Origin: Leucobacter chinensis
GTDB lineage: Bacteria > Actinomycetota > Actinomycetes > Actinomycetales > Microbacteriaceae
Direction of reading: 5' to 3'
Length of the DNA stretch: 64,000 nt
Assembly (NCBI RefSeq): GCF_019049105.1
Contig: NZ_JAHQZR010000006.1
Location: 248,001 to 312,000, forward strand
Under the pieces are notes generated by a model. The model was not told the origin of the DNA and made no database searches. It saw only the letters and a program-made list of their open reading frames with translations. This document shows positions 19,094 through 56,548 of the stretch, one piece after another; position 1 is the stretch's first letter, and each line of letters begins with the position of its first letter. The position numbers were made by a program, and so were the translations under genes.

Positions 19094-19165
19094 TGGGATA
19101 TGGTGTAATTGGCAACACAACGGTTTCTGGTACCGTCATTCTAGGTTCGAGTCCTGGTATCCCAG
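19094..19165 (+). tRNA. tRNA-Gln (CUG anticodon)
   Basis: A complete cloverleaf is visible. The acceptor stem pairs TGGGATA (19094-19100) with TATCCCA (19158-19164), followed by discriminator G. The D arm contains GGTGTAATTGGCAACAC. The anticodon stem ACGGT/ACCGT encloses the seven-base loop TTCTGGT with anticodon CTG, specifying glutamine. The T arm has GGTTCGAGTCC. CCA is not encoded. The T-U/G start and loop are normal for tRNA-Gln. A strong terminator follows directly. Confidence 0.96.
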
Positions 19166-24043: not shown

Positions 24044-24529
24044 TCAGGCGGCCGCAAACGCGTACCACGAGACCACGCCAGCGATCGCGATCGCGGGAAG
24101 CCAGACCAAAACGAGCAGGGTCGCCACCTTCAGTCCACGGGCAGGTCGCGGTGAGCGGTAGATGGCAGCGGCGGGGTAGACGAGGGGCAGTAACAGCATC
24201 ATCCAGAGCTTCACCGTGCCCACAAGCGAGGTCGGGTTAAAGAAGCTGCCGAGCATCATCCAGATCCACGAGCCGAGAAAGAAGCAGGTGATGAGCCCCA
24301 ACACCGCGATGACGGTTATTGCGGTTCGCGACACGAGCCAGGCGCCGTTTGTGGTGCGCTTTGCGATGGCGACGTGGTTTAGCGCGGCGAAGACGAGCAT
24401 CGAGAGTGGCAACACGAGCTTTCGTATGACCGGTGCACCTTCGCTGCCGCCGCTTGACAGGAGAAAGATGCAACTGAAAACGAGCGCCGCATAGAGCAGA
24501 GCTGCGGCCACGGTCACGAAGCGTTGCAT
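24044..24529 (-). CDS. Hypothetical integral membrane protein
   Basis: This 161-residue protein has about five hydrophobic helices: residues near 5-27, 38-55, 68-90, 103-120 and 135-158. It is rich in Leu, Val and Ala with short basic loops (AIAKRTTNG, YRSPRPARGLK), suggesting cytoplasmic loops there. No signature is recognised. The ATG at 24529 is preferred to longer options because GAAAGG lies a few bases upstream and the longer version would add an arginine-rich non-membrane leader. It is divergent from the small cupin gene, with 167 bases between. Confidence 0.75.
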   Translation of the reverse strand: MQRFVTVAAALLYAALVFSCIFLLSSGGSEGAPVIRKLVLPLSMLVFAALNHVAIAKRTTNGAWLVSRTAITVIAVLGLITCFFLGSWIWMMLGSFFNPTSLVGTVKLWMMLLLPLVYPAAAIYRSPRPARGLKVATLLVLVWLPAIAIAGVVSWYAFAAA

Positions 24530-24696
24530 GGGAGCCTTTCTCTGGTGCTGTTTTGAGTGTAGCGGTGGGCCGCGATGATGACACGAACAAAAAACTCTCG
24601 CGTGATCGGGGCAACGGCGGCCGCTGCCCCTGCGGGTGACAATAAAGAGCTGGGCCCTGGCAGCCGCCATTGCCCGAAGAACTTCAGAAAGGCGCC

Positions 24697-25029
24697 ATGA
24701 CCGAGATTTCACTCACCACGCTCACCGACGAACTTCGAGCCGAGGCCGTTGCCGAGGGTGCTCTCCGAGCCTCTCGAGTACTCAAAGGAGACGGCCGTTT
24801 GCGGCAGGTCGCGATCGTGCTCTTGCCGGGTGGCGAGCTGCCCGAGCACGGCAACCCTGGCGAGGCTCGATTGATCGTCATGAGCGGATCGGTGCGCTTT
24901 ATCGAGGCCGCAACCGAGGTAACGCACGTGCTGACCGCCGGTGATTACTTTGTCGTGCCCGACGCGTTGCACAGCGTCGAGGCCGACGCCGAGAGTCTTT
25001 TGCTGCTGAGTTTCGCGCCAGTGCAGTAG
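24697..25029 (+). CDS. Small cupin-domain protein
   Basis: This 110-residue protein consists of one cupin beta-barrel. The first cupin motif is visible as LLPGGELPEHGNPGEARLIV, with one histidine and a glutamate, and the second as VPDALHSVEADAESLLL with histidine, so a metal site (H, E, H) is plausible. The usual G(X)5HXH form is degenerate here, with GGELPEHGN giving only one His. Such small cupins are often metal-dependent dioxygenase-like or sensory proteins. The function is unknown. AGAAAGG six bases before the ATG is the ribosome site. It is convergent with the Crp/Fnr-type regulator. Confidence 0.85.
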   Translation: MTEISLTTLTDELRAEAVAEGALRASRVLKGDGRLRQVAIVLLPGGELPEHGNPGEARLIVMSGSVRFIEAATEVTHVLTAGDYFVVPDALHSVEADAESLLLLSFAPVQ

Positions 25030-25038
25030 CCAGGTGGG

Positions 25039-25779
25039 TTACTCGGAGGCCGTCGCGACCGCCTGCTCGTCGCGCAGGGCGAAGGCGTTGCGGTGATAGT
25101 CGATCATGCCGTCGTGTTTCATGCGGGCGAGTTCGCGTGACACGGCGGCTCGGTCGGCGTGCAGGTACTGGGCGAGTTCGCCCCGTGAGAGCGGAATCGT
25201 GAACTGGCTTTTGCCTCGCCGCTGCGATTCAACGAGTAGGTAGTTCGCGATGCGCCCTCGCAGCGAACGGTGCCGCAGGATCTCAAGCTTGGTGCGTAGT
25301 CGCTCCTGCTTGTGCAGCACCGAGTTGAGCAGGTTCGTGTGCACGATGGCTTTTGCGGGGCAGGCGACCGTCGGGTCTGAGAGCCTCGCGGGGTCGAGTA
25401 GCAGCACGGTTCCCGCGGTCGCACCGATCACGGCGCGCTCTCGTGGTACCTCGGGAGCGGCCCAGGCCCTCGGCTGCCACCCCTCGCCAAAGAGATCGCC
25501 CGGTTCGATGACGTCGACCAGGGTCTGATCGCCGTTGGGATGCTGCCTGACATCAAAGCCAGTTCCGCTCACGAGCACTCCGTAGTGGGGGCGTGCCCCC
25601 TGGCAGGCCAGCACCTGCTCATCTTTCTCGAACGAGAAGGCCTGAATGCCGAGGCACGAGGTCGCGCAGGTGAACTGTTCTTCGCTGAGGCCGGCAAAGA
25701 GCAGGCTAGCGCCAGCACTGCCTGCCTGCGCCTGACGGCCACCCGTTGGGGGCCAGAACTGTAAGGGGGCTGCGCGCAT
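25039..25779 (-). CDS. Crp/Fnr-family transcriptional regulator
   Basis: This protein of 246 residues has an N-terminal cyclic-nucleotide-binding-like beta-barrel (about residues 25-135, with PGDLFGEGW in the place of the CRP phosphate-binding cassette), a dimerisation helix, and a C-terminal winged helix with the recognition region LSRGELAQYLHADRAAVSRELARMKHDG. The cAMP-contacting residues are not conserved. Four cysteines (C38, C42, C59, C140) could hold a metal or redox centre as in FNR, though the spacing differs. I chose the ATG at 25779, with GGAAGG just upstream. It is divergent from a transporter/monooxygenase operon and probably controls it through the CTAAGT palindromes between them. 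Confidence 0.9.
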   Translation of the reverse strand: MRAAPLQFWPPTGGRQAQAGSAGASLLFAGLSEEQFTCATSCLGIQAFSFEKDEQVLACQGARPHYGVLVSGTGFDVRQHPNGDQTLVDVIEPGDLFGEGWQPRAWAAPEVPRERAVIGATAGTVLLLDPARLSDPTVACPAKAIVHTNLLNSVLHKQERLRTKLEILRHRSLRGRIANYLLVESQRRGKSQFTIPLSRGELAQYLHADRAAVSRELARMKHDGMIDYHRNAFALRDEQAVATASE

Positions 25780-25819
25780 TGTTCCTTCCCGTTGCCGTGG
25801 CAACGAAGTTGCCCGTTGC

Positions 25820-25885
25820 TCACTGTCACACTAAGTGTACAAACTTAGCCAAGCCTAAGTTGCAGCAGATGAAAAGTGACAGTGA
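25820..25885. promoter_or_regulatory. Compound operator between the Crp/Fnr regulator and transporter operon
   Basis: Three alternating copies of one half-site, CTAAGT (25831-25836), ACTTAG (25843-25848) and CTAAGT (25855-25860), are each separated by six bases. They make two overlapping perfect palindromes with the N6 spacing typical of Crp/Fnr dimers. They are bracketed by a ten-base inverted pair TCACTGTCAC (25820-25829) and GTGACAGTGA (25876-25885), centred within one base of the second palindrome. A minus-strand -10 TAGGCT (25857-25852) and a plus-strand TAAGTT (25856-25861) lie inside it. Confidence 0.7.
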
Positions 25886-25895
25886 AAGGTAACTC

Positions 25896-26903
25896 GTGAA
25901 GAGTCCCGCAACAAAGAACATATCGTTGAGCCTCTCGGCGCTCGGCATCGTTGGCGCACTCCTGCTCACCGGGTGCAGCACCCAGAGCGAAGAGCCTAAA
26001 ACGCCGAAAGAGCCGGCGGCCGAGGTCGAAGCCCCAGCCGAGGTGCACGTCAGCGGCCCAGCCTCGCCACCCAGCCTACCCATCTTGCGCATGATCGAGA
26101 CTGACGCGCTCGGCGAGACCGACATCGTGTTCGAGCGGTGGGAGAGCGCCGACCAGCTGACCGCCGCTGTCACCGGAGGCACCGAGTTCGTTGCCGCACC
26201 GCTCACGACGGGTGCAACCCTCGCGCAGGGCGGGGCAGACCTGCAACTGCTGAACGTGAGCGCTTGGGCGGTCATGGGGCTCGTTACCAACGACGACGCT
26301 ATTGAGACGATCGACGATCTTGCGGGCCAGACGATCCACGTCGCAATGCGGGCTTCAGCGGTCGACTACACGATGCAACTCGTGCTCGCGGCCCACGATC
26401 TCACCGACGACGTGACGATCGAATACGTTGATCCGCTGAACGGCCCCGAGCAGTTTCTCGCAGGCCAGATTTCGACGCTCGTCACGGTCGAGCCGCAGGT
26501 GACGATGCTGCTCGCCAACAGTGAGGGAGCGCGCAGCGTCGTCGACTTCGAAGCGGAGTGGCGCGAGCTCACCGACTCGGCGCTGCCGTTGCCGACAGCG
26601 GGAACGTTCGTGAACGGGACCTTCGCGGGCGAGCACACCGAAACCGCCAAGGCGTTCCGTGAGGCATACGCCGAGGCTGCCGAGTGGGTCGCTGAACACC
26701 CAGACGAGGCTGGGCAGCTCGCGAACGAGAAGCTCGGCATGCCGGCTCCCATCGTTGCAGCGTCGATTCCGAAGATCTCGTGGGAGGCGCAGGGCGCAGC
26801 CGAGGCGAAGCCAGCGGTTGAGCTCTACTTCACCCAGCTCTTCGAGACCTGGCCAGAGAGCGTCGGCGGGGCAATGCCCGAGGCGAGCTTCTACCTGCAG
26901 TGA
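25896..26903 (+). CDS. ABC transporter substrate-binding lipoprotein (SsuA/NMT1-like)
   Basis: This 335-residue lipoprotein is the solute receptor of an ABC importer, with a signal peptide ending in the lipobox LLTGC. The mature protein is of the SsuA/ThiY/NMT1-like type: TAAVTGGTEFVAAPLTTGAT is the first ligand loop, IETIDDLAGQTIHVAMRASA the conserved hinge segment, and VEPQVTMLL the second lobe. Members bind sulfonates, nitrate, taurine or thiamine precursors. Ligand identity is not visible. The GTG at 25896 is preceded by GAAAGG at 25884-25889. The stop codon overlaps the next gene's ATG (TGATG), so receptor and transporter are coupled. Confidence 0.92.
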   Translation: MKSPATKNISLSLSALGIVGALLLTGCSTQSEEPKTPKEPAAEVEAPAEVHVSGPASPPSLPILRMIETDALGETDIVFERWESADQLTAAVTGGTEFVAAPLTTGATLAQGGADLQLLNVSAWAVMGLVTNDDAIETIDDLAGQTIHVAMRASAVDYTMQLVLAAHDLTDDVTIEYVDPLNGPEQFLAGQISTLVTVEPQVTMLLANSEGARSVVDFEAEWRELTDSALPLPTAGTFVNGTFAGEHTETAKAFREAYAEAAEWVAEHPDEAGQLANEKLGMPAPIVAASIPKISWEAQGAAEAKPAVELYFTQLFETWPESVGGAMPEASFYLQ

Positions 26904-28486
26904 TGAAGCGTGCAACCGGCGGCGCGGCGGGCGGGCTCAGGCCCTCTGCCGCGCCGCTCGCGTGGTCGCTGAGCGGTATCGCACTTCTCGCGGGAGCGTG
27001 GGCGCTCGCCGCGCGCAGCCTGCCAGAGATCATTCTGCCGGGACTCGGCACGACCCTTCGGGCCTTCGCTGCCCTCGTTTCTGAGCCTGCAACGTATCTC
27101 GCGCTCGGCGAATCGCTCTCGACGTACGTCATCGGGCTCACCATCGCTGCCGTGCTCGGGGCACTACTCGGTCTCGTTTCTGGACTCAATGCGAGTGCGA
27201 ACGCAGCGCTCGCACCGCTGTTTGCCCTGTTGAACGCCGTGCCGACGGTCGCGTGGATGGGGCTCGCGATGATCTGGTTCGGGCTGGGAGCGGGACCCAC
27301 CGCCTTTCTCATCGTCGTCACGACGACGCCGATTCTCGCGGCGGCGCTCCGCAACGCGCTTCGCGAGCGCGATCGGCGATACGAAGAGCTTGCCGAAGCC
27401 TACGAGCTGGGCCGGGGCGAGCGGCTGCGCCACGTGACGGTTCCACCGCTTGTCGGGCCTGCCCACGCGGCGCTCGTCTCGATGGCGGGGCTCGGGTGGA
27501 AACTCACGGTCATGGGCGAATTTCTCACCGCCTCGCGCGGCCTCGGCGAACAGCTCGTGATCGCGAAGGCGCACATGCAAACGAGCCGCGTGATCGCGAT
27601 CACGATACTGCTCGTGCTCGTGTGGGTGCTCGTCGAAGCATTGCTGCGCGTCATCGCGAGGTGGTGCGCACCGCGGCCGAGCAAGCGAAGCGCCGCGGGC
27701 GTGGGCAGGGGCGAGAGCCCGGCTGCGGCTGGGGGAGAGCGGGCGGGGGCGATCCGCTGCGAAGGTATCGCACTCGGCCATGACGGCGAACGAATCGCGC
27801 AAGAGATCAGCTTCGCGGCCACACCGGGCAGCGTCACCGCGATTTTAGGGCCCTCAGGCATCGGAAAATCGTCGCTCTTGCACGTTCTGGGCGGTATTGC
27901 CGAGCCGTTCGAGGGCGCAATCGAGCGGAGCGAGGGGCTGCGTTGCTCGTACGTGTTCCAGGACGACCGGCTGTTGCCATGGCGCAGCCTCGGAGAAAAC
28001 GTGGCGCTGTGCGCTGGGGTTTCGCTCGAGCGGGCATGCGATCAACTCGCGCAGCTCGGGCTCGGCGACGCCTGCGCACGCATGCCCCACGAACTCTCTG
28101 GCGGAATGCGTCGTCGCGGAGCGCTCGCCCGCGGTTTTCTGCGCGACGCCAGCCTCCTGCTGCTCGACGAACCCTTCGCGGGCCTCGACGTGCGCAGGCG
28201 CGTCGCCCTCATCGAAGACATCGAGCGCATGCGACGGCTGAGCGGAAAAACCATCATCTTTGTCACGCACGACGTCGAAGACGCGCTGCTCTTGGCAGAC
28301 CAAGCTATCGTTCTCGGCGGATCGCCGGTGGCGAGCGTGGCCGCGCGAGTCGACCTGACCCCGTTTGGTCGGGAGCGAGCGCTCGAAGACCCAGCGATGG
28401 CCGAGCCGCGGAGTCGTTTGCTCGCGGCACTACTCGACGAGAACATCGCGGCGGGCGTCACTGAACATCACACACTGAAGGCATAA
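26903..28486 (+). CDS. Fused ABC transporter permease-ATPase (SsuC-SsuB-like)
   Basis: This 527-residue protein joins two components that are normally separate. Residues 1-255 are a BPD-type permease with about six membrane helices and the EAA loop EAYELGRGERLRHVTVPPL, which contacts the ATPase. A Gly/Ala/Arg-rich linker (about 255-285) leads to a complete ATPase: Walker A GPSGIGKSS (316-324, K322), Q-loop FQDDRLLPW, signature LSGGM (398-402), Walker B LLLLDEPFAG (D422, E423) and the H-loop THD. An importer would need two copies, giving a homodimer with both halves duplicated. It is probably driven by the adjacent receptor lipoprotein. The fused order, permease first, is unusual. Confidence 0.9.
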   Translation: MKRATGGAAGGLRPSAAPLAWSLSGIALLAGAWALAARSLPEIILPGLGTTLRAFAALVSEPATYLALGESLSTYVIGLTIAAVLGALLGLVSGLNASANAALAPLFALLNAVPTVAWMGLAMIWFGLGAGPTAFLIVVTTTPILAAALRNALRERDRRYEELAEAYELGRGERLRHVTVPPLVGPAHAALVSMAGLGWKLTVMGEFLTASRGLGEQLVIAKAHMQTSRVIAITILLVLVWVLVEALLRVIARWCAPRPSKRSAAGVGRGESPAAAGGERAGAIRCEGIALGHDGERIAQEISFAATPGSVTAILGPSGIGKSSLLHVLGGIAEPFEGAIERSEGLRCSYVFQDDRLLPWRSLGENVALCAGVSLERACDQLAQLGLGDACARMPHELSGGMRRRGALARGFLRDASLLLLDEPFAGLDVRRRVALIEDIERMRRLSGKTIIFVTHDVEDALLLADQAIVLGGSPVASVAARVDLTPFGRERALEDPAMAEPRSRLLAALLDENIAAGVTEHHTLKA

Positions 28487-28508
28487 GGGCTTGAGAGGAA
28501 GACCGAAC

Positions 28509-29717
28509 ATGACACATCGAGAAGAACCGTTGCGGCTGAGCATCGAGAAGGCCGAGGCGGTTGTTACCGCGCTCGCCCCGCACGAGGAAGCGCTGCGGGA
28601 AGACGCGGCGAGATCTGACGTAACCGGAGCGATTGGCGAGCAAACGCTCGACATCGTGCGGGCGGCGGGCGGCTATCGGCTCTCGGAACGAGCCGAGATG
28701 GGGGCCTCAGGGCTCGTGCGATTTGGAATGGGGCTTGCGAGTCTGCACCCCGCCGCGGCATGGAACGCGGTCGTATCGCAGACCAACAGTCTGCTCGCGC
28801 AGACCTTCGCGGCGCTGAGCGGGTTTACGCTTCCTGAAGACCCTGACGTGCAGTGGTGCGGCGTGTTTTCGAGTGGTGAAACGAGCGCGCGGCGCAGTGA
28901 GAGCGATGCGAATACCCATCTGGTGACGGGCACCTGGCGGTACGCCTCAAACAGCGATCTCGCCGAGTGGGCGCTGTTGAACATTGCGCACCCCGAGTTC
29001 GGCCCGGCGTTCATCGCGGTTCGGCGTGATGAGCTTCAGCTCGGCGGCTCGTGGAACGCTCTTGGGCTCCGCGCAACCGGCAGCCACACGCTGACCGCGA
29101 GTGAACTCGCGGTGCCCGACAGCCACCTGCTTCCGGCAAGCGTGCTCTTTGCCGACGCCCCAGACGCGCCCTTCGGGCTGCGCGTGCCAAGCCGCCTGCG
29201 CACCGCACTCGGGCTCTCTGCCGTGATGGTTGGCGCTGCAGAGGCGATGACCCGTGAACTCGTTGGTTCGATCAGGGTGAGCTCTGAGCGTCAGCGAGCG
29301 GCCGGCATGCCGGGCCGCGGTCTCGATAAGCCCGGTGTCTCACTCGCGATCGGAGATACTGTCTCTCGGGTTGAGGCGGCGAAAGCGGTACTCTGCTCGG
29401 TCGCCGACAGTCTCGACGCGACCGTGAGTGACGGCTCGCCGCTGTCTGCCACGCAGCTCACGGGCGCTCGCATGATGCTGAGCCGCGTCACCGAAGACAT
29501 CGCTCAGGCCGCCCACGAGGTGAGCCTCATCGCGGGGTCGAGGGCGTGTCTCGAAGGCGATGCGGTGGGCAGGCTCTGGCGTGACACTCACATGGCTGCC
29601 CGTCACGCGGCGCTTGCGCCAGCAATGGGCTTCGACCTCGGTGCGAAGGGGCTTGTGGGGCCGGGCGACGGCGACGTTGCGGCGGCCGTGGGGCCGCTTG
29701 CGCCAGGGGTTCGCTGA
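28509..29717 (+). CDS. Flavin-dependent monooxygenase, acyl-CoA dehydrogenase-like (DszC/SfnC type)
   Basis: This protein of 402 residues has the acyl-CoA dehydrogenase fold. Strands around VTGTWRYASNSDLAEWALL form the beta-domain flavin pocket, GLRATGSHTLTASELAVP is the characteristic substrate/flavin turn, and the C-terminal four-helix domain ends in LWRDTHMAARHAALAP (Acyl-CoA_dh_2-like). The catalytic glutamate of true dehydrogenases is not evident, which fits FMNH2-dependent hydroxylases such as DszC, SfnC or HpaB-like oxygenases. It is downstream of an SsuABC-like importer, so oxidation of an imported sulfur or nitrogen compound is a reasonable inference. No flavin reductase gene is nearby. 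The ATG at 28509 has AGAGGA upstream. Confidence 0.8.
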   Translation: MTHREEPLRLSIEKAEAVVTALAPHEEALREDAARSDVTGAIGEQTLDIVRAAGGYRLSERAEMGASGLVRFGMGLASLHPAAAWNAVVSQTNSLLAQTFAALSGFTLPEDPDVQWCGVFSSGETSARRSESDANTHLVTGTWRYASNSDLAEWALLNIAHPEFGPAFIAVRRDELQLGGSWNALGLRATGSHTLTASELAVPDSHLLPASVLFADAPDAPFGLRVPSRLRTALGLSAVMVGAAEAMTRELVGSIRVSSERQRAAGMPGRGLDKPGVSLAIGDTVSRVEAAKAVLCSVADSLDATVSDGSPLSATQLTGARMMLSRVTEDIAQAAHEVSLIAGSRACLEGDAVGRLWRDTHMAARHAALAPAMGFDLGAKGLVGPGDGDVAAAVGPLAPGVR

Positions 29718-29808
29718 TGCGTGGCTCTGTGCCGGTGAGCGAGGGGGTGTTCCTGACGCGCTTTCGGCGTTCACAGGGGTAACTCGCGCACGGTTGATTT
29801 GAAAGCTG

Positions 29809-29839
29809 GGGGCGCCGGGCCGTGAAGGCTCGGCGCCCC
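29809..29839 (+). terminator. Probable terminator of the transporter/monooxygenase operon
   Basis: GGGGCGCCG (29809-29817) and CGGCGCCCC (29831-29839) form a nine-base perfect stem with a 13-base loop about 90 bases after the monooxygenase stop. There is only a weak T-containing tail. Confidence 0.6.
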
Positions 29840-29854
29840 TTAGCGTTACTCTCA

Positions 29855-29865
29855 CGAGCGTTACT
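29855..29865 (+). repeat. Direct repeat CGAGCGTTACT, left copy
   Basis: CGAGCGTTACT occurs here and again at 34279-34289, just outside both ends of the long FHA/FtsK gene. A shortened copy AGCGTTACT also lies at 29842-29850. Confidence 0.6.
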
Positions 29866-29912
29866 GGCTCTGGTGAACCAGGGCAGGCGAAGAGAGGAAC
29901 GAAGCCCGATGC

Positions 29913-32900
29913 ATGACCGTGCCAGAGAGCAACCCGCGAGGCGGCGTGATGCGCATCGTCGTTGATCCGCCCCGGGGTGAGACGAACATTTTCGAGTTGG
30001 AGAGCTGGGCTCCCGGCGCGACCGTGCGTGATCTGCTCGACGCTTTGCGCGCGCACGGCATACGTGGCTGGCTGAGCGTGTCACTCGACGGTGTTCCGTT
30101 GACGCCGCTGCTGAGGCTCGCTGATCTTGCCCTGGTTGAGGGAGCACGCCTCTCCGAACACCCTGTGAACGCGGTGCGGCCTTTCGCCGGCTGGGTGCTC
30201 TCGGTCGCTGCGGGCTCCAGGGCCGGCGCTGTCGTGGGTCTCGCCAAACATCGGGTGGTGACCGTGGGAAGCGACCCTGGCTGCGACCTTGTGCTTGAGT
30301 GCCGGGGCGTGGCAGCCCGGCACTGCACCCTGGAACGTGAGGCCGATGGGGTGCGCATTCGTCATACCGCTGAGGGGAAAGAGACACTGGTCGACGAAGC
30401 CTTGGTTGGCTCCGAGGGACTGTTGCTGCGAAGCGAAGCCACGATCACGGTGGGGCAGACTCGCTTGAGGGTGCGACCCTCGCTGCGCGAGCAGCGAGCG
30501 CAACTCCCCGAGCTTGAGAGAAGGGGAGCGGAGGGGGTGACAGTGGCGTTTAGCCGTTCACCCGTGGCCCGGCAGGAGCCTGCGCAGCAAGTGCTGGAAC
30601 CGCCTGAACCTCCAGTCGAACGTGAGGGGCGTACCGCGAAGCCGGCCGTACTGATGCTCGTCGCCCCGATCGTCATCGCCGGTGTCTTCGCGGTGATGCT
30701 TGGCGACGCTCGTATGATGCTGTTCGCCGCATTCGGGCCAGTGACTTCGTTGCTCGGATATCTGGGCCAAGCCTTCAAAGCTCGTCGCAGCCGTGGGGAA
30801 GTGAAGCAGCAGGAGATTGATCGCGTGGCACAGTTTTTCGGTGCTGTACATAAGGCCGCCACGATGCATCGGAGGGGTCTCGAGTCACTCGCCCCTGACC
30901 TCTCGGTGGTATTGCGGCGGGCGATGATGCCGAGCGTTGAACTGTGGAAGCGCCGTGCCGGAGAGCCTCACTTCGCCACGGTAAGACTCGGGGTAGGCGA
31001 TGTGGTCTGGCGACCGCCGCTTGGGAAAATGGGAGGGCGCTGGAACGACAGGCCCTCGCAGGAAGCCCCGGTGCTGTGCCACAGGCAGCACGCGCTTCCC
31101 ATCACCGTTGACCTCGGCGAACTGCAAAGCGGCATGCTCGGCATCGTGGGCGACAGGGAGACCTCGGTGGCACTCGTGCGCGGTATTCTCGCTCAGCTCG
31201 CGGTGCACTGCGGGCCGGCAGATCTCCTTACGGCGGTGGTGAGTGACCCGCAGCATGAGCGAGACTGGAGCTGGGTGAGCCTTTTGCCCCATGCTTCCCG
31301 CGGCAAGCATTCAGGGCAAGCCTTCTGGTGTGTGTCGGGGCCCGAGGCGGCGAGAACGCAATTTGCGCAGCTGTGCTCGCAGCAGCAAGCAGAATCGACG
31401 CGCGTGAGCATCACGATCATTGATACCGACACCCTGCGCGAAGCAGGGTGGGCTGGCATGCGACAGCTTGTTGCGCTTCAGCCCGGTGAGAAAGTACGAA
31501 ATATCGTGCTGGTTCTTGCCGAGAGTGGCGACGCCTTGCCAGCGCAGTGTGAGACGACCGTGAGCATCGGGCGCGATGGAAAAGCTTGGCTTCGGCAGGG
31601 CACTTCGCACAGCGAAATTGAGCCTTTTACCGTGAGCGGAATGGGCGGGAACGAAGCGCTCGAGTGTGCGCGCTCGCTCGCGAGGTTGCGCGACCCTGAA
31701 CAGCAAGAGGCCGCACACACCATTCCAAGCCAAGTGAGGCTCGCTGAGGTGCTCCAGGGTACGCAACCGCGAAGCCATGCTCAGAAACAAGCCGTGCAAC
31801 AGGTAACGGTCACGGTGCAGCGGGTGCATGAACTCTGGAGCACGAGTGAGGGTGTTGGGGCCCCGGTGGGTATGCGTGCCGGGGCGATACAGCACATTGA
31901 CCTGGTGCGCGACGGACCGCACGCTCTGGTGGCCGGAACCACTGGGTCTGGAAAGTCAGAGTTCTTGAGAACGCTCGTCATCAGTCTCGCACTGCACCAC
32001 AGCCCCGAAGAGCTGAATTTCATACTCGTTGATTTCAAGGGTGGGGCGGCGTTTGCTGACTGCGAGCAGCTACCGCACACGGTCGGCACGCTCAGCAACC
32101 TTGACGCACAGCTCGCAGCGAGAGCGATTACCGCGCTCGAGGCAGAGATCGTGCGACGGCAGCGGCTCTTCGCAAGCGCCGGTCACACCATCGACACGCT
32201 CGACGCATACCGCGCAACGAAACCCGCAGAGCCGATGGCGCGAATCGTGCTCGTGGTCGATGAGTGTGCGATGCTCGCGCAACAGCTGCCCAGTGTTTTG
32301 GCCTCGTTCGTGAGCATTGCCGCGGTCGGAAGGACGCTTGGCATTCACCTAGTGCTTGCGACCCAGAGACCCGCTGGAGTTGTGACCGAAGATATTCTCG
32401 CAAACACGAACTTGCGGGTTGCGCTTCGGGTGCAAAGCCCCGAAGATTCGCTGCAGGTTATTGAATCCTCTGCCGCAGCGAACCTCTCCCGGCACCAGAC
32501 AGGCAGGGCACTGCTTCGCTTAGGAAGGGGCGAGGTGGTCGAGGTGCAAACCGCAATGGTGCGCGGCAAAGCGACCCGTGAGGTCTGTGAAACCGTGAGT
32601 GTGAGCGAAGCAGATCCGTTTAGGCCCGTGTCATCTGAGAGAGCCACCATAAAGAACAGAACGGAACAGCAGCGTTCAGCGGTCGAGCAAGGAACAAAAA
32701 AGCCGGGCAGCGCCGATGGCGCGCAACACACGATTTCGGTGATCGCCCTCGCCGCCGAGCGCCTTGGGTTGGGTCGACCCCGCAGGGTATGGCCCGAGCC
32801 TCTGCCCGGCCAGCTTTGCCGAGAACAGCTCGACCTCGCTGCATCGACTGAGAACAGCGTTGAGGCACCGCTTGTGGTGGCGCTCGCTGATGATCCGCCT

Positions 32901-34259
32901 CGGCAAAGGCAGTATGCGGGTGGGTGGCACATGACCGAAGGAAACCTTCTGCTACTTGGGCTGCCAGGGAGTGGAACGAGTAACGCGCTCGTGCAGCTGG
33001 CGATGGCGTCACTGCATCGTTCACGGCAAAGCCCGTGTCAGCTGCTCTTTCTTGAGATGGGCAGAGGCACGTTCGATGCTTTTGATGCATCACACGCTAC
33101 GCGCACGCTTGTGGCGTCGGGGCCCGACGCGGCTGAGCAGCGCAGCCGGCTCATTCGCTTTTTGCATCGCGAGCTGCAGGCTAGGCAAGCGAGCAACCGG
33201 GAGCACGAACCGATGCTCATCTACGTCGACGGTTTCACCGAGCTCAGAGAGGAGTACCAAGACCATGATGGGCAGATGCTGCTCGACATGTTTATGCGCG
33301 TTTATGCTGACGGGCCAAGCGTTGCGATGCACACGGCGATGTCGGCGCACCGCGCGGCCTCGGTTCCTGCGGCGATTGATGCGCTCACCAAACAGCGGTG
33401 GGTGTTTCGCCTTGCCAACGTTCACGATTATGCGGCCTTGGGTATTCGGCCCGCCGATATGCCCGCTGATACCCCTGGGCGATGCATCGATACGGCGTCT
33501 GGGCACCACCTACAGGTCGTGAAACCGTCGAAGAACATTGAGGTCACGGTGCGAGCGCTCAATGAGGGGCGGCGAGGCCAGAGGCCCCCAGACCCGGCGG
33601 CCGTCATGCCTGGCGAAGTGATGGCTGCGAGCCTCGAAAGGATCTTCAGGCTGAGTGGGGAATCGATCGAGCTTCCTGTAGGCATCGACGAAGAGACGCT
33701 CGCCGCCTTCGTGGCGAGGCTGAAACCAGGACAGCACGTACTCGTTGCTGGGCCGTCACGGTCGGGTAAAACAACGTTTCTTGGGGCGCTTCGAGAAATG
33801 TGCGAGAGAGCGCTGGCTGTGTTTGTCGTCTGCTCGCATTCATCACCGCTCAGGGATATGGGCGATGCACGAGTCGCGGTCACGACCGAAGCGATCAGCG
33901 GGCTCGTGCGGTTTCTTCGAAGTCAGAGCACCCCGTCGCTTCTCCTCATCGATGATGCCGACGAAATCGATGATGAGTGCGGCGAATTAGAGCAGCTCTT
34001 GCGACAGACTCCCGTGGGCCTCACGATCATTGCCGCGGGGCACAGCTCGAGGCTGAGGCAACGCTACGGTCACTGGAGTGCCGGGGTGCGCGACTCGCGG
34101 TGCGGCCTGCTGCTGCAACCAGACGCCGATTACGACGGTGAACTGCTGGGCGTTCGGCTGCCGCGCTCGCCGCCTATCGCGATGACTGAAGGAAGGGGCT
34201 ACTGGTGCGAGCAGGGTCAAGCGACGCTCGTGCAGAGCATGCGTTCGGGCACTCCGTGA
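29913..34259 (+). CDS. FHA domain-containing FtsK/SpoIIIE ATPase, EssC-like (type VII secretion class)
   Basis: This 1448-residue protein resembles EssC/EccC, the membrane motor of type VII secretion. An N-terminal beta-grasp-like segment (about 13-90) is followed by an FHA domain with GSDPGCDLVL (from G119) and AARHCTLE (R136, H137). Two membrane helices span about 245-287. Three FtsK-type ATPase modules follow. The first is intact, with GTTGSGKS (675-682, K681) and LVVDEC (D783, E784). The second is degenerate, with GLPGSGTS (1016-1023), a threonine replacing the lysine, and a weak VDGFTE. The third has GPSRSGKT (K1286) and LLIDDADE (D1347). No WXG100 substrate or Ecc partner is in the window. 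ATG 29913 or ATG 29949 (GAGGCGG upstream) may be the start. Confidence 0.88.
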   Translation: MTVPESNPRGGVMRIVVDPPRGETNIFELESWAPGATVRDLLDALRAHGIRGWLSVSLDGVPLTPLLRLADLALVEGARLSEHPVNAVRPFAGWVLSVAAGSRAGAVVGLAKHRVVTVGSDPGCDLVLECRGVAARHCTLEREADGVRIRHTAEGKETLVDEALVGSEGLLLRSEATITVGQTRLRVRPSLREQRAQLPELERRGAEGVTVAFSRSPVARQEPAQQVLEPPEPPVEREGRTAKPAVLMLVAPIVIAGVFAVMLGDARMMLFAAFGPVTSLLGYLGQAFKARRSRGEVKQQEIDRVAQFFGAVHKAATMHRRGLESLAPDLSVVLRRAMMPSVELWKRRAGEPHFATVRLGVGDVVWRPPLGKMGGRWNDRPSQEAPVLCHRQHALPITVDLGELQSGMLGIVGDRETSVALVRGILAQLAVHCGPADLLTAVVSDPQHERDWSWVSLLPHASRGKHSGQAFWCVSGPEAARTQFAQLCSQQQAESTRVSITIIDTDTLREAGWAGMRQLVALQPGEKVRNIVLVLAESGDALPAQCETTVSIGRDGKAWLRQGTSHSEIEPFTVSGMGGNEALECARSLARLRDPEQQEAAHTIPSQVRLAEVLQGTQPRSHAQKQAVQQVTVTVQRVHELWSTSEGVGAPVGMRAGAIQHIDLVRDGPHALVAGTTGSGKSEFLRTLVISLALHHSPEELNFILVDFKGGAAFADCEQLPHTVGTLSNLDAQLAARAITALEAEIVRRQRLFASAGHTIDTLDAYRATKPAEPMARIVLVVDECAMLAQQLPSVLASFVSIAAVGRTLGIHLVLATQRPAGVVTEDILANTNLRVALRVQSPEDSLQVIESSAAANLSRHQTGRALLRLGRGEVVEVQTAMVRGKATREVCETVSVSEADPFRPVSSERATIKNRTEQQRSAVEQGTKKPGSADGAQHTISVIALAAERLGLGRPRRVWPEPLPGQLCREQLDLAASTENSVEAPLVVALADDPPRQRQYAGGWHMTEGNLLLLGLPGSGTSNALVQLAMASLHRSRQSPCQLLFLEMGRGTFDAFDASHATRTLVASGPDAAEQRSRLIRFLHRELQARQASNREHEPMLIYVDGFTELREEYQDHDGQMLLDMFMRVYADGPSVAMHTAMSAHRAASVPAAIDALTKQRWVFRLANVHDYAALGIRPADMPADTPGRCIDTASGHHLQVVKPSKNIEVTVRALNEGRRGQRPPDPAAVMPGEVMAASLERIFRLSGESIELPVGIDEETLAAFVARLKPGQHVLVAGPSRSGKTTFLGALREMCERALAVFVVCSHSSPLRDMGDARVAVTTEAISGLVRFLRSQSTPSLLLIDDADEIDDECGELEQLLRQTPVGLTIIAAGHSSRLRQRYGHWSAGVRDSRCGLLLQPDADYDGELLGVRLPRSPPIAMTEGRGYWCEQGQATLVQSMRSGTP

Positions 34260-35556: not shown

Positions 35557-36009
35557 TTAGAGCGCCTCTGGCTCAGCTGCTGGGCTGCCGCCTGCCGCTT
35601 TCTGGTCACGCTTCGGCACGATGAAGTCAAAGAGCCACGAGAATACGAAGGCGTAGACTAAGAAGAAGACCATGAGGCCGATGTCGAGCAAGAAAGCCTC
35701 GACGAGCCCCACGCCGAGCAGCAAAGCCATGGCCGGCACCAGGAACAGGACGAGGCCGGCCTCGAAGCCGAGCGAGTACGCGATGCGGCGCGGCACCGTT
35801 CGCGTTTGTGATGGCTGGCGCCGCTCCCACGCCTCAAAGAGGCTCGTCCAAATAAAGTTCCAGGTCATGGCGATGACCGACGACACCACGGCCGTCGCCA
35901 TCGCGCTCGAGCCGCTATGGCCGAGGGCTGAAAAGGTAAATGCCACGAGTGAGATGGCGAGCAGCTCGAAAACGAGCACGTAGACGATTCGACGCACGAT
36001 GGGCGACAT
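35557..36009 (-). CDS. PACE-family efflux pump-like membrane protein
   Basis: This 150-residue protein matches the proteobacterial antimicrobial compound efflux (PACE) architecture of two tandem bacterial transmembrane pair domains, giving four helices. Segments of note are IVRRIVYVLVFELLAI in the first helix, AMTWNFIWTSLFEAWERR, the repeat-like RRIAYSLGFEAGLVLF in helix three, and LVYAFVFSWLFDFIVPKR in helix four, with the paired Arg/Glu pattern typical of the family. PACE members export biocides such as chlorhexidine or short diamines, but function here is inferred only. ATG 36009 is preferred over an upstream ATG because GGGAGGAAC lies directly before it. It is downstream of the LysR gene on the same strand, 182 bases away. 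Confidence 0.82.
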   Translation of the reverse strand: MSPIVRRIVYVLVFELLAISLVAFTFSALGHSGSSAMATAVVSSVIAMTWNFIWTSLFEAWERRQPSQTRTVPRRIAYSLGFEAGLVLFLVPAMALLLGVGLVEAFLLDIGLMVFFLVYAFVFSWLFDFIVPKRDQKAAGGSPAAEPEAL

Positions 36010-36191
36010 GGTTCCTCCCGAGTGTTGAGCATGGGAAGTCCTTGCGGGTTCACGTCCATGGCACATGAAACATGGTGTGGCTGAGCCACGGGCGAAGCGC
36101 TGAGGCGGTTCGTTCAGGAAATCTTAGCAACGTTCTGCTGGGCACGTGCACAGGCAAGCGTCGGCAAAACCGGGGCGACGCGGGCGGGCGA

Positions 36192-52583: not shown

Positions 52584-52614
52584 AACGCCGGTGGCTCCTC
52601 CCACCGGCGTTTTA
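52584..52614 (+). terminator. Leader hairpin before the siderophore operon
   Basis: AACGCCGGTGG (52584-52594) and CCACCGGCGTT (52601-52611) form an eleven-base perfect stem followed by TTTA. It lies in the leader, between the iron-box promoter and the first gene. Its loop CTCCTC can pair with the ribosome site AAGGAG (52629-52634), so it could act as an attenuator or thermosensor-like element rather than a simple terminator. Confidence 0.6.
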
Positions 52615-52638
52615 CTTGTGAAAATACGAAGGAGCGAT

Positions 52639-53646
52639 GTGACGATTCGAATGAACAAGTTTGCGGGGGCTACCGCCCTTGCACTGACCGCTGGGCTTGT
52701 GCTCTCAGCGTGCTCGAACACTGCCGACAACTCGGCAAACACCGATGACGCCAAAGATAAGGCGCCCGCCACGGTAACGATCACCGATAACCACGGTGAA
52801 GTTGAAGTTCCCGTGAACCCAGAGACCGTTGTCGCGCTTGACAACCTCGTCTTTGACACCCTTTCAGACTGGGACATCAAGCTTGCCGCTGCGCCCAAGG
52901 GCGTCATGGGCTCGGCGTGGCCCGAGTACACCGACGACGAGAGCGTTGCTGACGTGGGCAACCACATCGAGCCAAACCTCGAGGCCGTCGTTGCTGCTCA
53001 GCCCGACCTCATCATTGGTGGCTACCGCTTTGGCTCGTACTACGACGACCTGAAGGCCCAGAACCCCGACGCGGTGGTCATCGAGATCGCACCTCGCGAT
53101 GACGAAGAAGAGTTCTCAGAGCTCAAGCGCCAGACCGAGATTCTCGGCCAGATCTTCGATCACGAAGATGAGGCAGCTGAGCTCACGAAGCAGCTCGACG
53201 ACGCCATTGCTGGCGCAAAGGATGCCTACAACGGCACCGACAGCGTCATGGCCGTCAACACCTCGGGTGGCAAGATTGGCTACCTCGCTCCGGTCGTAGG
53301 CCGCGCGCTTGGCCCGGTCTTCCCGGCACTTGACCTCGTCGCAGCGCTTGAGGCTGAGGGCGATAACGACCACAAGGGTAACGACATCGGCGTTGAAGCA
53401 ATCGCGCAGTCAAACCCCGACTGGATTCTCGCGCTTGACCGCGACGCTTCGTTTGCACCTGAAGATCGCGAAGAGGGATCAGCGCCGGCTGAAGAGCTCA
53501 TCAAGAAGTCTGAGGCACTTGCGAACGTGACCGCTGTGAAGGAAGATAAGGTCGTTATTCTCGACCCCAACTTCTACCTCACCGAGGGTATTCGGGCCTA
53601 CACCACCCTCTTCAATGAGATTAAGGATGCCTTCGCTAACGCATGA
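52639..53646 (+). CDS. Siderophore ABC transporter substrate-binding lipoprotein (FecB/FhuD-like)
   Basis: This 335-residue lipoprotein captures ferric siderophore at the cell surface. A signal peptide ends in the lipobox LVLSAC, followed by an Asn/Asp/Ala-rich linker. The class III fold shows VTITDNHGEVEVPVNPETVV at the start of lobe one, PDLIIGGYRFGSYYDDLK, the long connecting helix DEAAELTKQLDDAIAGAKD, and QSNPDWILALDRDASF in lobe two. The GTG at 52639 is preferred, because AAGGAG at 52629-52634 is at the right distance, whereas the ATG at 52651 would be 16 bases away. Its promoter carries an iron box, so it should be expressed under iron limitation. Confidence 0.93.
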   Translation: MTIRMNKFAGATALALTAGLVLSACSNTADNSANTDDAKDKAPATVTITDNHGEVEVPVNPETVVALDNLVFDTLSDWDIKLAAAPKGVMGSAWPEYTDDESVADVGNHIEPNLEAVVAAQPDLIIGGYRFGSYYDDLKAQNPDAVVIEIAPRDDEEEFSELKRQTEILGQIFDHEDEAAELTKQLDDAIAGAKDAYNGTDSVMAVNTSGGKIGYLAPVVGRALGPVFPALDLVAALEAEGDNDHKGNDIGVEAIAQSNPDWILALDRDASFAPEDREEGSAPAEELIKKSEALANVTAVKEDKVVILDPNFYLTEGIRAYTTLFNEIKDAFANA

Positions 53647-54722
53647 GTCATCGAATGAAGCCCACCCAGCCGGGTGAAGCACAACCGACCGGGGCGTCCA
53701 CCAACACAGGTGGGCGCCCCGGTCGGGGGTTTACGCACCAAACGGGCGGAAAGCCGGTAGCACCAGAGCTCAAACCTCGCAGGCGTTCACCGCTGTGGTT
53801 CATTCTCGCGGTGCTTGGAACGCTCGCGCTGCTCGTCGCTTCGCTCTCGGTGGGGGCCTTTGACATTTTGGGCGACGAGTTTGGTTCAGAGATGTTCTGG
53901 ATCACGAGGGTGCCGCGCACGCTCGCTCTCGTGCTCTCAGGCGCTGCGATCGCGACGAGCGGTCTCGTGATGCAGATGCTCACGCAAAACCGTTTTGTTG
54001 ACGCAACCACGTCGGGAACGACGGAGTGGGCGGCGCTCGGGCTGTTGCTGACCGCCATCTTCTTTCCCAATATGGGGCTCATGGGGCGCATGATCACCGC
54101 GAGTGTGTTCGCATTTGTTGGCGCCATGGTCTTCATGCTCATTCTGCGCCGTATCGTCATTCGCACGACCCTCGTTGTTCCCCTCATCGGCATTATGCTT
54201 GGCGCGATTATTAGCGCCCTCACGACGTTTCTTGCGGTGCAATTCAACCTTCTGCAGATGGTTGGTACCTGGTTTATGGGCAGCTTCACCGAGATCGTTC
54301 GCGGTCGGTACGAGGTGCTCTGGGTGGTTGCGGCCGTAACCGTGTGCGTCTTTTTGATTGCCGATCGCATCACCGTCGCCGGCCTTGGGAAAGACGTGGC
54401 GACGAGCGTGGGGCTTCGCTATGACGCGATCGTCGTTGGTGGCACCGTGCTCGTGGCCATTGCCGCTGGTGTGACGGTTGTCGTGGTCGGCTTCTTGCCC
54501 TTGCTTGGGCTCGTTGTGCCGAACGTTGTGTCGCTCATTCGTGGCGATAACGTGAGGAGTAACCTGCCCTGGGTGTGCCTCGGCGGTATCTCGCTCGTGA
54601 CGGCCTGCGATCTGCTCGGCAGAACGATCAACATGCCCTTCGAAGTGCCGGTTTCAATGGTGCTTGGTGTCGTCGGTGCATTCGTGTTCATCACGCTGCT
54701 GCTACGGCAGCGGAAAGCGTAG
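53643..54722 (+). CDS. FecCD-family iron-siderophore permease
   Basis: This 359-residue protein is one half of the membrane channel of the siderophore importer. After a Pro/Gly-rich N-terminal tail of about 50 residues it has nine or ten helices of the BtuCD/FecCD type. Landmarks are ITRVPRTLALVLSGAAIATSGLVMQ near the N-terminus, TVGLRYDAI-like segments (TSVGLRYDAIVVGGTVLVAI) and VGFLPLLGLVVPNVVSLI, where the conserved Gly-Leu loop meets the ATPase. The first ATG overlaps the stop of the lipoprotein gene by four bases. The unusually long N-terminal tail may be cytoplasmic and disordered. Confidence 0.94.
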   Translation: MSHRMKPTQPGEAQPTGASTNTGGRPGRGFTHQTGGKPVAPELKPRRRSPLWFILAVLGTLALLVASLSVGAFDILGDEFGSEMFWITRVPRTLALVLSGAAIATSGLVMQMLTQNRFVDATTSGTTEWAALGLLLTAIFFPNMGLMGRMITASVFAFVGAMVFMLILRRIVIRTTLVVPLIGIMLGAIISALTTFLAVQFNLLQMVGTWFMGSFTEIVRGRYEVLWVVAAVTVCVFLIADRITVAGLGKDVATSVGLRYDAIVVGGTVLVAIAAGVTVVVVGFLPLLGLVVPNVVSLIRGDNVRSNLPWVCLGGISLVTACDLLGRTINMPFEVPVSMVLGVVGAFVFITLLLRQRKA

Positions 54723-54728
54723 GGTCTC

Positions 54729-55757
54729 ATGACCAGTATTGTGCGACTTGCGAGCTCTGGTGATCTCCCAGAGAGCGCAGAAGCGTCATTACCGTGGTGG
54801 CGAAGGGCGCTGCCACTCACCATCGTCTATCTGGCGGCGGCCCTTTTTGCCATTGGCATCGTTGTCTACGGCAACCCCGTTCCTTTCGGTCAGCCCGGTT
54901 TCTGGGTCATCGTGCAAACCCGCCTCGGGTCACTCGGAACGATCGCGCTGGTCGCGGTGGCTCAAGCCGTCGCTACCGTCATGTTTCACACGGTCACCTC
55001 GAACCGTATCTTGACCCCATCAATTCTTGGCTTCGATGCCCTCTACGTGCTCAGCCAGACGCTCCTCGTGTTTTTCTTCGGCACCTCGGCGTCGAGCATG
55101 GAGGGAATACCGAAGATCATTGCGCAAAGCGCACTCATGGTCGCCTTTGCGACCGTGCTCTACGGCTGGCTCTTCTCGGGGAAAAACGCGAACCTGCACC
55201 TTCTGCTGCTCGTTGGCATTGTGCTTGGCATCGGCTTTGGATCGATCTCGACCTTTATGCAGCGAATGCTCACGCCGAGCGAGTTCGATGTGCTGAGCGC
55301 ACGGCTGTTCGGCAGCATCAGCAAGGGCAACACTGATTACCTTCCCATTGCCGCCGTCATTGTTTTTGGCATTCTTGCCTACTTCTGGTCACGACGCCGC
55401 ACCTTCGATGTCGTTGCGCTCGGTCGTGACGTATCGGTTGGCTTGGGCGTGCGATACCAGCGTGAGGTCGTGACGACACTCGTGCTCATCGCGGTGCTGG
55501 TTTCAGTCTCGGCCACGATGGTCGGCCCCATGACCTTCTACGGGTTTCTCGTCGCAACCCTCGCGTATCAGTTCGCGAAGGGCGACACCCACGGGCATAT
55601 TTTGCCCCTCGCGATTGGCATCGCACTCGTGACGCTTCTGGGCGCTACCTTTGTTCTGCGTCACATCTTTTCGGCGGCTGGCCTCGTCACCGTCATCATT
55701 GAATTTATCGGCGGTCTGCTCTTCTTGATCGTCTTGTTGCGAAAAGGAATGCGTTGA
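54729..55757 (+). CDS. FecCD-family iron-siderophore permease (second subunit)
   Basis: This 342-residue protein is the partner permease. It has nine or ten helices, with VIVQTRLGSLGTIALVAVAQ near the start, TPSILGFDALYVLSQTLLVFFFG and the conserved GPMTFYGFLVATLAYQ coupling loop that touches the ATPase. The two permeases are similar but not identical and probably pair as a heterodimer, as in FecC-FecD. It starts seven bases after the first permease gene, and its stop codon overlaps the ATPase start (TGATG). Confidence 0.94.
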   Translation: MTSIVRLASSGDLPESAEASLPWWRRALPLTIVYLAAALFAIGIVVYGNPVPFGQPGFWVIVQTRLGSLGTIALVAVAQAVATVMFHTVTSNRILTPSILGFDALYVLSQTLLVFFFGTSASSMEGIPKIIAQSALMVAFATVLYGWLFSGKNANLHLLLLVGIVLGIGFGSISTFMQRMLTPSEFDVLSARLFGSISKGNTDYLPIAAVIVFGILAYFWSRRRTFDVVALGRDVSVGLGVRYQREVVTTLVLIAVLVSVSATMVGPMTFYGFLVATLAYQFAKGDTHGHILPLAIGIALVTLLGATFVLRHIFSAAGLVTVIIEFIGGLLFLIVLLRKGMR

Positions 55758-56548
55758 TGAATGCAGCGACTGCGACCGGAATCGAACTTCGTGGAATCTC
55801 GAAGAACTATGACGGCAGGCACGTTCTCGGGCCCATCGACCTGACAATCGAGCATGGCGGTGTGACCGCCTTGATCGGCCCGAACGGCGCCGGCAAGTCG
55901 ACGATGCTCACGATCATTGGTCGCTTGCTCGACGCCGACAGTGGGCGGGTGACGGTCGGTGGCCTTGACGTGCGTCACACGAAGTCGAAAGAGCTCGCGA
56001 AGGTCGTCTCGATCTTGAAGCAGGAGAACCATTTCATGGCGCGCCTCACGGTGCAGCAGCTCGTGACCTTCGGCCGCTTCCCGCACTCTGCGGGCCGGCT
56101 CACCGAGACCGACCAACGGGCAATTCACGCGGCGATCGCCTTTCTTGACCTCGCGGGCATGGAAGATCGCTTTATCGACGAGCTCTCGGGCGGCCAGCGC
56201 CAGCGAGCGTTTGTCGCGATGGTGCTCGCGCAAGACACCGACTACGTGCTGCTCGACGAGCCGCTCACGGGCCTTGACATGCGGCATGCAGTCGGCATGA
56301 TGGGGCAGGTTCGAGCGGCCGCTGACGCGCTCGGCAAGACCGTCGTGCTCGTGATTCACGACGTGAACTTTGCCGCGGCCTACGCCGACCGTATTATCGC
56401 TCTTGCCGAGGGGCGCGTCGTTGCGAGTGGAACGCCCGAAGAAATCATCACCCCCGAGGTGCTTGAGCGTGTGTTTGAAACCCCGGTTGAGGTCGTCGAA
56501 CACCACGGCAAACGGGTCGCGATCTACTACCGCCACCCGGAGGCCTAG
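55757..56548 (+). CDS. Siderophore ABC transporter ATPase (FecE-like)
   Basis: This 263-residue cytoplasmic ATPase powers ferric-siderophore import with the two FecCD permeases. Walker A is LIGPNGAGKSTML with K47. The Q loop is ILKQENHFMARL, the signature is LSGGQRQRAFVAMVLAQ, Walker B is YVLLDEPLTGLDM, and the H loop is VIHDVNF. The residues around the signature are those of FepC/FecE. It is the last gene of the four-gene iron operon and overlaps the second permease stop by one base. The convergent acetyltransferase ends 60 bases downstream. Confidence 0.95.
   Translation: MNAATATGIELRGISKNYDGRHVLGPIDLTIEHGGVTALIGPNGAGKSTMLTIIGRLLDADSGRVTVGGLDVRHTKSKELAKVVSILKQENHFMARLTVQQLVTFGRFPHSAGRLTETDQRAIHAAIAFLDLAGMEDRFIDELSGGQRQRAFVAMVLAQDTDYVLLDEPLTGLDMRHAVGMMGQVRAAADALGKTVVLVIHDVNFAAAYADRIIALAEGRVVASGTPEEIITPEVLERVFETPVEVVEHHGKRVAIYYRHPEA

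Follow-up and report, generated by a model that had tools for sequence, protein, structure and literature searches.

The locus raises the question of what joins an uptake system, a flavin-type oxygenase and a Crp/Fnr-type regulator in the window (the whole stretch of 64,000 nucleotides of Leucobacter chinensis DNA that was analysed), and which compound they might handle. The unit put forward in the original prediction, consisting of a receptor lipoprotein, a fused importer, a flavin-type oxygenase and a divergent Crp/Fnr regulator, was found together in four of four genomes, and the observation of a five-gene importer-oxygenase cluster, which includes a small cupin gene, is confirmed as real. 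We read it, with a probability of roughly 0.6, as an accessory module that imports and oxygenates a single small organic compound.

Composition and conservation of the unit

The features of the unit are given in Table 1. The cupin gene, absent from the original prediction but occupying the corresponding position in each of the other three unit-bearing genomes, stands tail-to-tail with the regulator gene and is counted in the conserved unit, while the regulator gene falls outside the interval originally proposed (25820-29717). The regulator and receptor genes are divergent with 92 bases between them, the ATG of the fusion overlaps the receptor stop (TGATG), and the gap between the fusion and the oxygenase gene is 22 bases. 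No sigma-70-type promoters were found in 24500-30000.

Table 1. Features of the importer-oxygenase unit (positions in the window).
Feature	Position	Strand	Details
Small cupin-domain protein	24697..25029	+	110 aa from ATG; Cupin_2 27.6 bits vs cut-off 27.2
Crp/Fnr-type regulator, Lmo0753/HcpR-like	25039..25803	-	254 aa from TTG
Candidate operator between the divergent regulator and receptor genes	25831..25861	.	CTAAGT-N6-ACTTAG-N6-CTAAGT
Receptor lipoprotein, NMT1/SsuA-class	25896..26903	+	335 aa, GTG start
Fused permease-ATPase, type I ABC importer	26903..28486	+	527 aa from ATG
Oxygenase component, group D flavin monooxygenase-like	28509..29717	+	402 aa

The order cupin, divergent Crp/Fnr regulator, receptor, fusion and oxygenase was identical in the window, in a second genome of its genus (G051) and in the loci L013 and L014, which come from two Leucobacter genomes (Leucobacter sp. 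7(1) and L. chromiireducens subsp. solipictus). The dN/dS values against G051 were 0.075 for the cupin, 0.027 for the regulator, 0.068 for the receptor, 0.061 for the fusion and 0.089 for the oxygenase; against the two Leucobacter genomes they ranged from 0.18 to 0.30 for the five genes, with synonymous sites near saturation. Because the surroundings of L013 and L014 are also alike beyond the unit (approximately 81% identity over 8.1 kb), the four unit-bearing genomes represent two contexts only.

The receptor was detected in both genomes of the window's genus (2/2, E ≤ 1e-30). In the Leucobacter genus to which L013 belongs, two of the 54 genomes carried it (E ≤ 1e-60). The fusion was present in 2 of 199 genomes of the family sample (E ≤ 1e-70) and in 1 of 394 genomes of the class sample, namely the window's own (E ≤ 1e-50). 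The oxygenase was found in 3 of 40 near relatives (E ≤ 1e-20), the third at 23% identity, and again solely in the window's own genome among the 296 of the phylum sample (E ≤ 1e-28). These low counts mark the unit as sporadic, a pattern that both horizontal spread and repeated loss fit. A gene for a 169-residue protein (35557-36066, minus strand) has relatives in L013 (12992-13492) and L014 (13099-13497), approximately 2 kb downstream of the oxygenase and in the opposite relative orientation compared with the window; given this shared downstream gene, common ancestry of the locus followed by its loss in other genomes stands on an equal footing with horizontal spread. Carriage of the unit by plasmids was rejected: no plasmid encoded the fusion at E ≤ 1e-40, and the 84 plasmid records matching the oxygenase were all below 60% identity, with 23-28% in the best 40 of 84. 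Among four plasmid oxygenase neighbourhoods, for which the gene table is incomplete, two contained a flavin reductase and none had an NMT1-class importer listed.

The fused importer

The receptor carries a lipobox (LTGC, by eye), and the prediction that it is SsuA/NMT1-like held for its NMT1 part (PF09084, 1.5e-9), whereas SsuA_fam, its best NCBIfam model, scored 70.9 bits, below the cut-off of 163.5. For the importer, the SaoP model gave 102.5 bits, below its cut-off of 295, and it is from this match under the cut-off that a likeness to the Sec-assisted organometallic (SAO) importer, as presented in PMC13188914, derives. The predicted receptor structure had a mean pLDDT of 36.7, was unusable and was left out of the analysis.

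The fusion, which would be 528 residues long if started from GTG 26900, holds both domains in a single frame (BPD_transp_1 at 87-254 and ABC_tran at 301-427), with 29 residues separating the edges of the permease and ATPase domain models. Its ATPase motifs are intact (GPSGIGKS, LSGGM, LLLLDEP and THD). The features of a type I ABC importer are present, namely a receptor, a BPD_transp_1 permease and an ATPase that shows the Walker A, Walker B, signature and H-loop motifs. Sulfonate, taurine and nitrate importers supplied the three best ATPase models, all with scores far under their cut-offs, and the best solved matches include CmpC/CmpD and nitrate importer ATPases. The SsuABC, TauABC, NrtABCD and CmpABCD systems accordingly have the same receptor class and the same permease and ATPase domains, but here the latter two lie on one chain and the model scores are far below the cut-offs. 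For the aliphatic sulfonate importer SsuABC in particular, neither is the SsuA_fam cut-off reached nor are the permease and ATPase genes separate.

The possibility that the fusion is a sequencing artefact, named in the original prediction as what would refute it, was checked and rejected, with permease and ATPase lying in one frame in all four unit-bearing genomes, identities to the window of 98% (G051) and 62 and 60% (Leucobacter sp. 7(1) and L. chromiireducens subsp. solipictus, respectively) and the dN/dS of 0.061 against G051. The claim that such an importer is special was weakened, as 10 of 29 distant relatives proved to be fused too. Moreover, PMC2991359 describes the DPL-family iron-siderophore importers of Arthrobacter arilaitensis as having fused permease and ATPase components, so one-chain importers are already known; the DPL-family importers belong to another ABC family, and they are likened to the present fusion by description alone. 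A 553-residue open frame of the window's genome (L004) was considered as another fusion and discarded, as reading that stretch from stop to stop gave individual genes for a receptor, a permease, an ATPase and a further permease. The same genome also encodes an ordinary importer of NMT1-class appearance at G000:C19:214000-225000 (L094), where the receptor, two permeases and ATPase are separate genes.

Relatives of the importer in other classes

A profile built from three receptors retrieved 30 of 396 genomes of the phylum sample at E ≤ 1e-20, comprising the window's own and 29 from other classes, which we would guess to be Coriobacteriia-type anaerobes. Permease and ATPase were in one frame in 10 of these 29 relatives and apart in 18; for the remaining one (L045), the ATPase was not seen within the short stretch examined. 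The ten fused relatives (L039-L042, L044, L048, L061, L063, L064 and L066) have the receptor gene followed by the permease-ATPase frame, and the inter-domain stretch between the models comes to 19-41 residues.

In a midpoint-rooted FastTree phylogeny of permease plus ATPase, the ten fusions grouped together (support 0.973), whereas the Leucobacter-type fusion grouped with unfused relatives across a split of support 0.997. Support for the group of ten fell to 0.687 when the receptor was added, and the ten did not form one group in the receptor-only tree, which argues against a single origin of these fusions. The Leucobacter-type importer stood apart from the ten fused relatives in all three trees, and we therefore read at least two fusion events; judging from these trees, the Leucobacter-type and other-class fusions apparently represent separate lineages. 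The oxygenase profile had no match in the 20 neighbourhoods fetched for the 29 other-class relatives, nor was a unit-type oxygenase found in the wider neighbourhoods fetched around four of the ten fused ones.

The genes adjoining these relatives are diverse. CoaE adjoins L055 and L056 and, by eye, also L057, L058 and L060. In L068, a Crp-type gene (cNMP_binding plus HTH_Crp_2) with 21% identity to the window's regulator immediately precedes the receptor gene. L050 and, by eye, L051, L052 and L054, all of one family, adjoin genes for [NiFe] hydrogenase and its maturation, and the importers there may be connected with the supply of a metal or cofactor.

Such neighbourhoods bear on the reading that the importer takes up a cofactor or precursor, for example thiamine pyrimidine, and that the oxygenase is unrelated to import. 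The receptor is of the NMT1/THI5 type, and the association of the other-class relatives with unlike genes, such as CoaE (two tested) and [NiFe] hydrogenase genes, agrees with this reading; however, importer and oxygenase remain together in all four unit-bearing genomes, and no Rfam riboswitch reached the gathering score in the window, L013, L014 or the loci of 18 relatives. The only Rfam match in the window at that score was a tRNA (19094-19165), with nothing in the 20 other loci, and a thiamine link through a riboswitch was rejected. We regard cofactor or precursor uptake as very improbable.

The oxygenase

The oxygenase matched PF08028 at 5e-17 (62.9 bits vs a cut-off of 22.7, for the 408-residue form starting from TTG 28491), and its C-terminal WRDxH region aligned with that of solved relatives. 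The best solved sequence matches were XiaF (4.1e-19), a putative Rhodococcus hydroxylase, an HsaA-type enzyme (1.2e-16), Rv3094c and HpaH-C2 (6.4e-11), and identity to the solved chains of the XiaF/HsaA/HpaH-C2 kind was 14-20%. The predicted structure was a weak model (mean pLDDT 61.5, best TM approximately 0.5), in whose fold ranking XiaF, HsaA and HpaH-C2 came first, followed by acyl-CoA dehydrogenases mixed with TdsC (rank 18) and DszC (rank 39). Sequence and weak model agree on an acyl-CoA dehydrogenase-like fold, which, like the PF08028 C-terminal domain, is expected of a group D enzyme. The enzyme is probably of the group D two-component flavin monooxygenase kind with predicted use of oxygen. 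No flavin reductase gene was found within the unit; elsewhere, three are present in the window's genome and two in G051.

The proposed DszC/SfnC-like character of the oxygenase was not borne out. By sequence and fold it is nearer to aromatic hydroxylases than to DszC or TdsC, the sequence match to TdsC reaching only E = 0.12 and DszC not appearing within E ≤ 1. The SfnB model scored 55.3 bits (5.1e-15) against a cut-off of 430.9, which places the protein outside that family, and the HsaA model tied with it at approximately 55 bits, likewise far under its cut-off. The idea of an organosulfur substrate, also part of the original prediction, is thereby reduced to a loose likeness.

In that reading of organosulfur scavenging, the oxygenase would begin sulfur release from an imported sulfonate, sulfone or thiophene-type compound. 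It draws on SsuA_fam as the receptor's best NCBIfam model, on the sulfonate and taurine importers as the two best ATPase models, and on the SfnB match, but all these matches are far under their cut-offs, HsaA equals SfnB in score, TdsC is remote, and the kin of the regulator are of the redox/NO kind. Nothing in the evidence selects sulfur over aromatic or nitrogen compounds as the substrate, and we consider organosulfur scavenging doubtful. A further likeness, by description alone, is to SadA and SadB of 'Candidatus Leucobacter sulfamidivorax', which PMC6868719 presents as group D enzymes of sulfonamide breakdown with XiaF among their nearest structures; their gene surroundings are other than those of this unit.

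Regulator, operator and cupin

The regulator matched HTH_Crp_2 above the cut-off and the cNMP-binding model below it (20.7 vs 27.5 bits), and its best solved match was Listeria Lmo0753 (7t8o, 2.1e-16). It bears a likeness to the Lmo0753/HcpR family. The regulator profile retrieved 9 of 296 genomes of the phylum sample at E ≤ 1e-25, that is, the window's own and eight from other classes. In all six of these eight that were tested (G682 and G766 were left out), an Hcp gene (PF03063) lies 158-215 bases from the regulator relative, measured between match edges, and identity of the window's regulator to three aligned Hcp-linked regulators was 27-29%. An HcpR-type protein usually has Hcp as its neighbour, but Hcp was neither adjacent to the regulator nor found anywhere in the genome in any of the four that carry the unit (the two Leucobacter genomes, G051 and the window's own).

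Four cysteines (C46, C50, C67 and C148) are invariant in three Leucobacter-type regulators. Five of six more distant proteins have cysteines that align with C50 and C148, and none has one at C46 or C67; within the nine-protein alignment, two of the four are thus confined to the Leucobacter-type regulators, a difference from HcpR/Lmo0753. HcpR of C. difficile is tied to nitrosative stress (PMC12915319), and that of P. gingivalis is described as a heme sensor with a Met68 ligand (PMC12750200). Kinship to Lmo0753 and the Hcp-linked regulators suggests that the present protein senses redox state or NO rather than sulfur, and we infer that it may be an Fe-S or heme sensor. Control by a Crp/Fnr-type protein thus survives from the original prediction, the divergent regulator being kept in four of four genomes, but the kin point to redox or NO, of which that prediction had said nothing.

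These kin also bring up a stress function, in which a nitrogen-containing or redox-active compound would be taken up or salvaged under nitrosative or redox stress and converted by the oxygenase. The Hcp genes beside six of six tested regulator relatives, Lmo0753 as the best solved match and the four invariant cysteines are in line with this, but with Hcp in none of the four unit-bearing genomes and an importer being an odd part for a detoxification system, such a function appears unlikely.

The palindrome between the divergent genes is a candidate operator. Its part AACTTAGC is invariant in the four genomes, while the last (second) CTAAGT half-site occurs only in the window's genus and is not kept in L013 and L014. 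The palindrome AACTTAG-N6-CTAAGTT was found at two places in the window at ≤2 mismatches vs 0.02 expected, the query having been taken from the operator site itself and that site being counted among the two. Relatives of the cupin adjoin varied genes (by eye); one of them (L106) has an MFS gene upstream that resembles, by eye, a nitrate/nitrite transporter gene.

Proposed function and significance

In the uptake-and-oxygenation module that we favour, the receptor lipoprotein would deliver the substrate to a half-transporter carrying permease and ATPase on a single chain, two copies of the fusion presumably making the whole transporter. The oxygenase would draw reduced flavin from a reductase encoded elsewhere, and the substrate would most likely be a small organic anion, perhaps aromatic or heteroaromatic. 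The regulator might answer to redox state or NO, perhaps via its cysteines, by acting on the palindrome that lies between it and the receptor gene. Several points count against this module: the absence of a reductase gene from the unit and of Hcp from the four genomes, the low identity of the regulator to its Hcp-linked kin, the weak oxygenase model and the loss of the second operator half-site in L013 and L014.

In a bolder version, a regulator of the Hcp/nitrosative-stress type and an importer most closely related to those of other, possibly anaerobic, classes would have been rewired to control an O2-dependent monooxygenase, the homodimeric one-piece importer bringing in one specific, perhaps nitrogen-containing, compound when oxygen/NO conditions allow; we hold this to be quite unlikely.

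The individual parts all belong to known kinds; the unusual features are that a sporadic unit keeps them combined and that the fusion has recurred. The unit offers a compact arrangement of uptake plus oxygenation with a divergent sensor, and the trees suggest that NMT1-class importers underwent permease-ATPase fusion more than once within one phylum. No cluster of this composition was found in the literature searched, and publication elsewhere remains possible. If its substrate were found, the unit would add a pathway; for now, it counts as one more orphan cluster of a familiar type, for catabolism or scavenging.

Surroundings of the unit

The genes directly downstream of the oxygenase differ, being FtsK/SpoIIIE-like in the window, TetR and MFS in L013, and MFS in L014, and the window genes upstream of the cupin had no match in the 5-6 kb flanks of L013 and L014. 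The protein encoded by the downstream gene in the window (29913-34259, plus strand) has 1448 residues, is of the FtsK/SpoIIIE kind and carries an FHA domain, which makes it EssC/EccC-like; by eye, no further type VII secretion genes were recognised beside it. The 169-residue protein encoded further downstream is a membrane protein, PACE-type efflux-like by eye. At 52591-56548 (plus strand), a lipoprotein, two permease-like genes and an ATPase form what looks, by eye, like an iron-siderophore importer.
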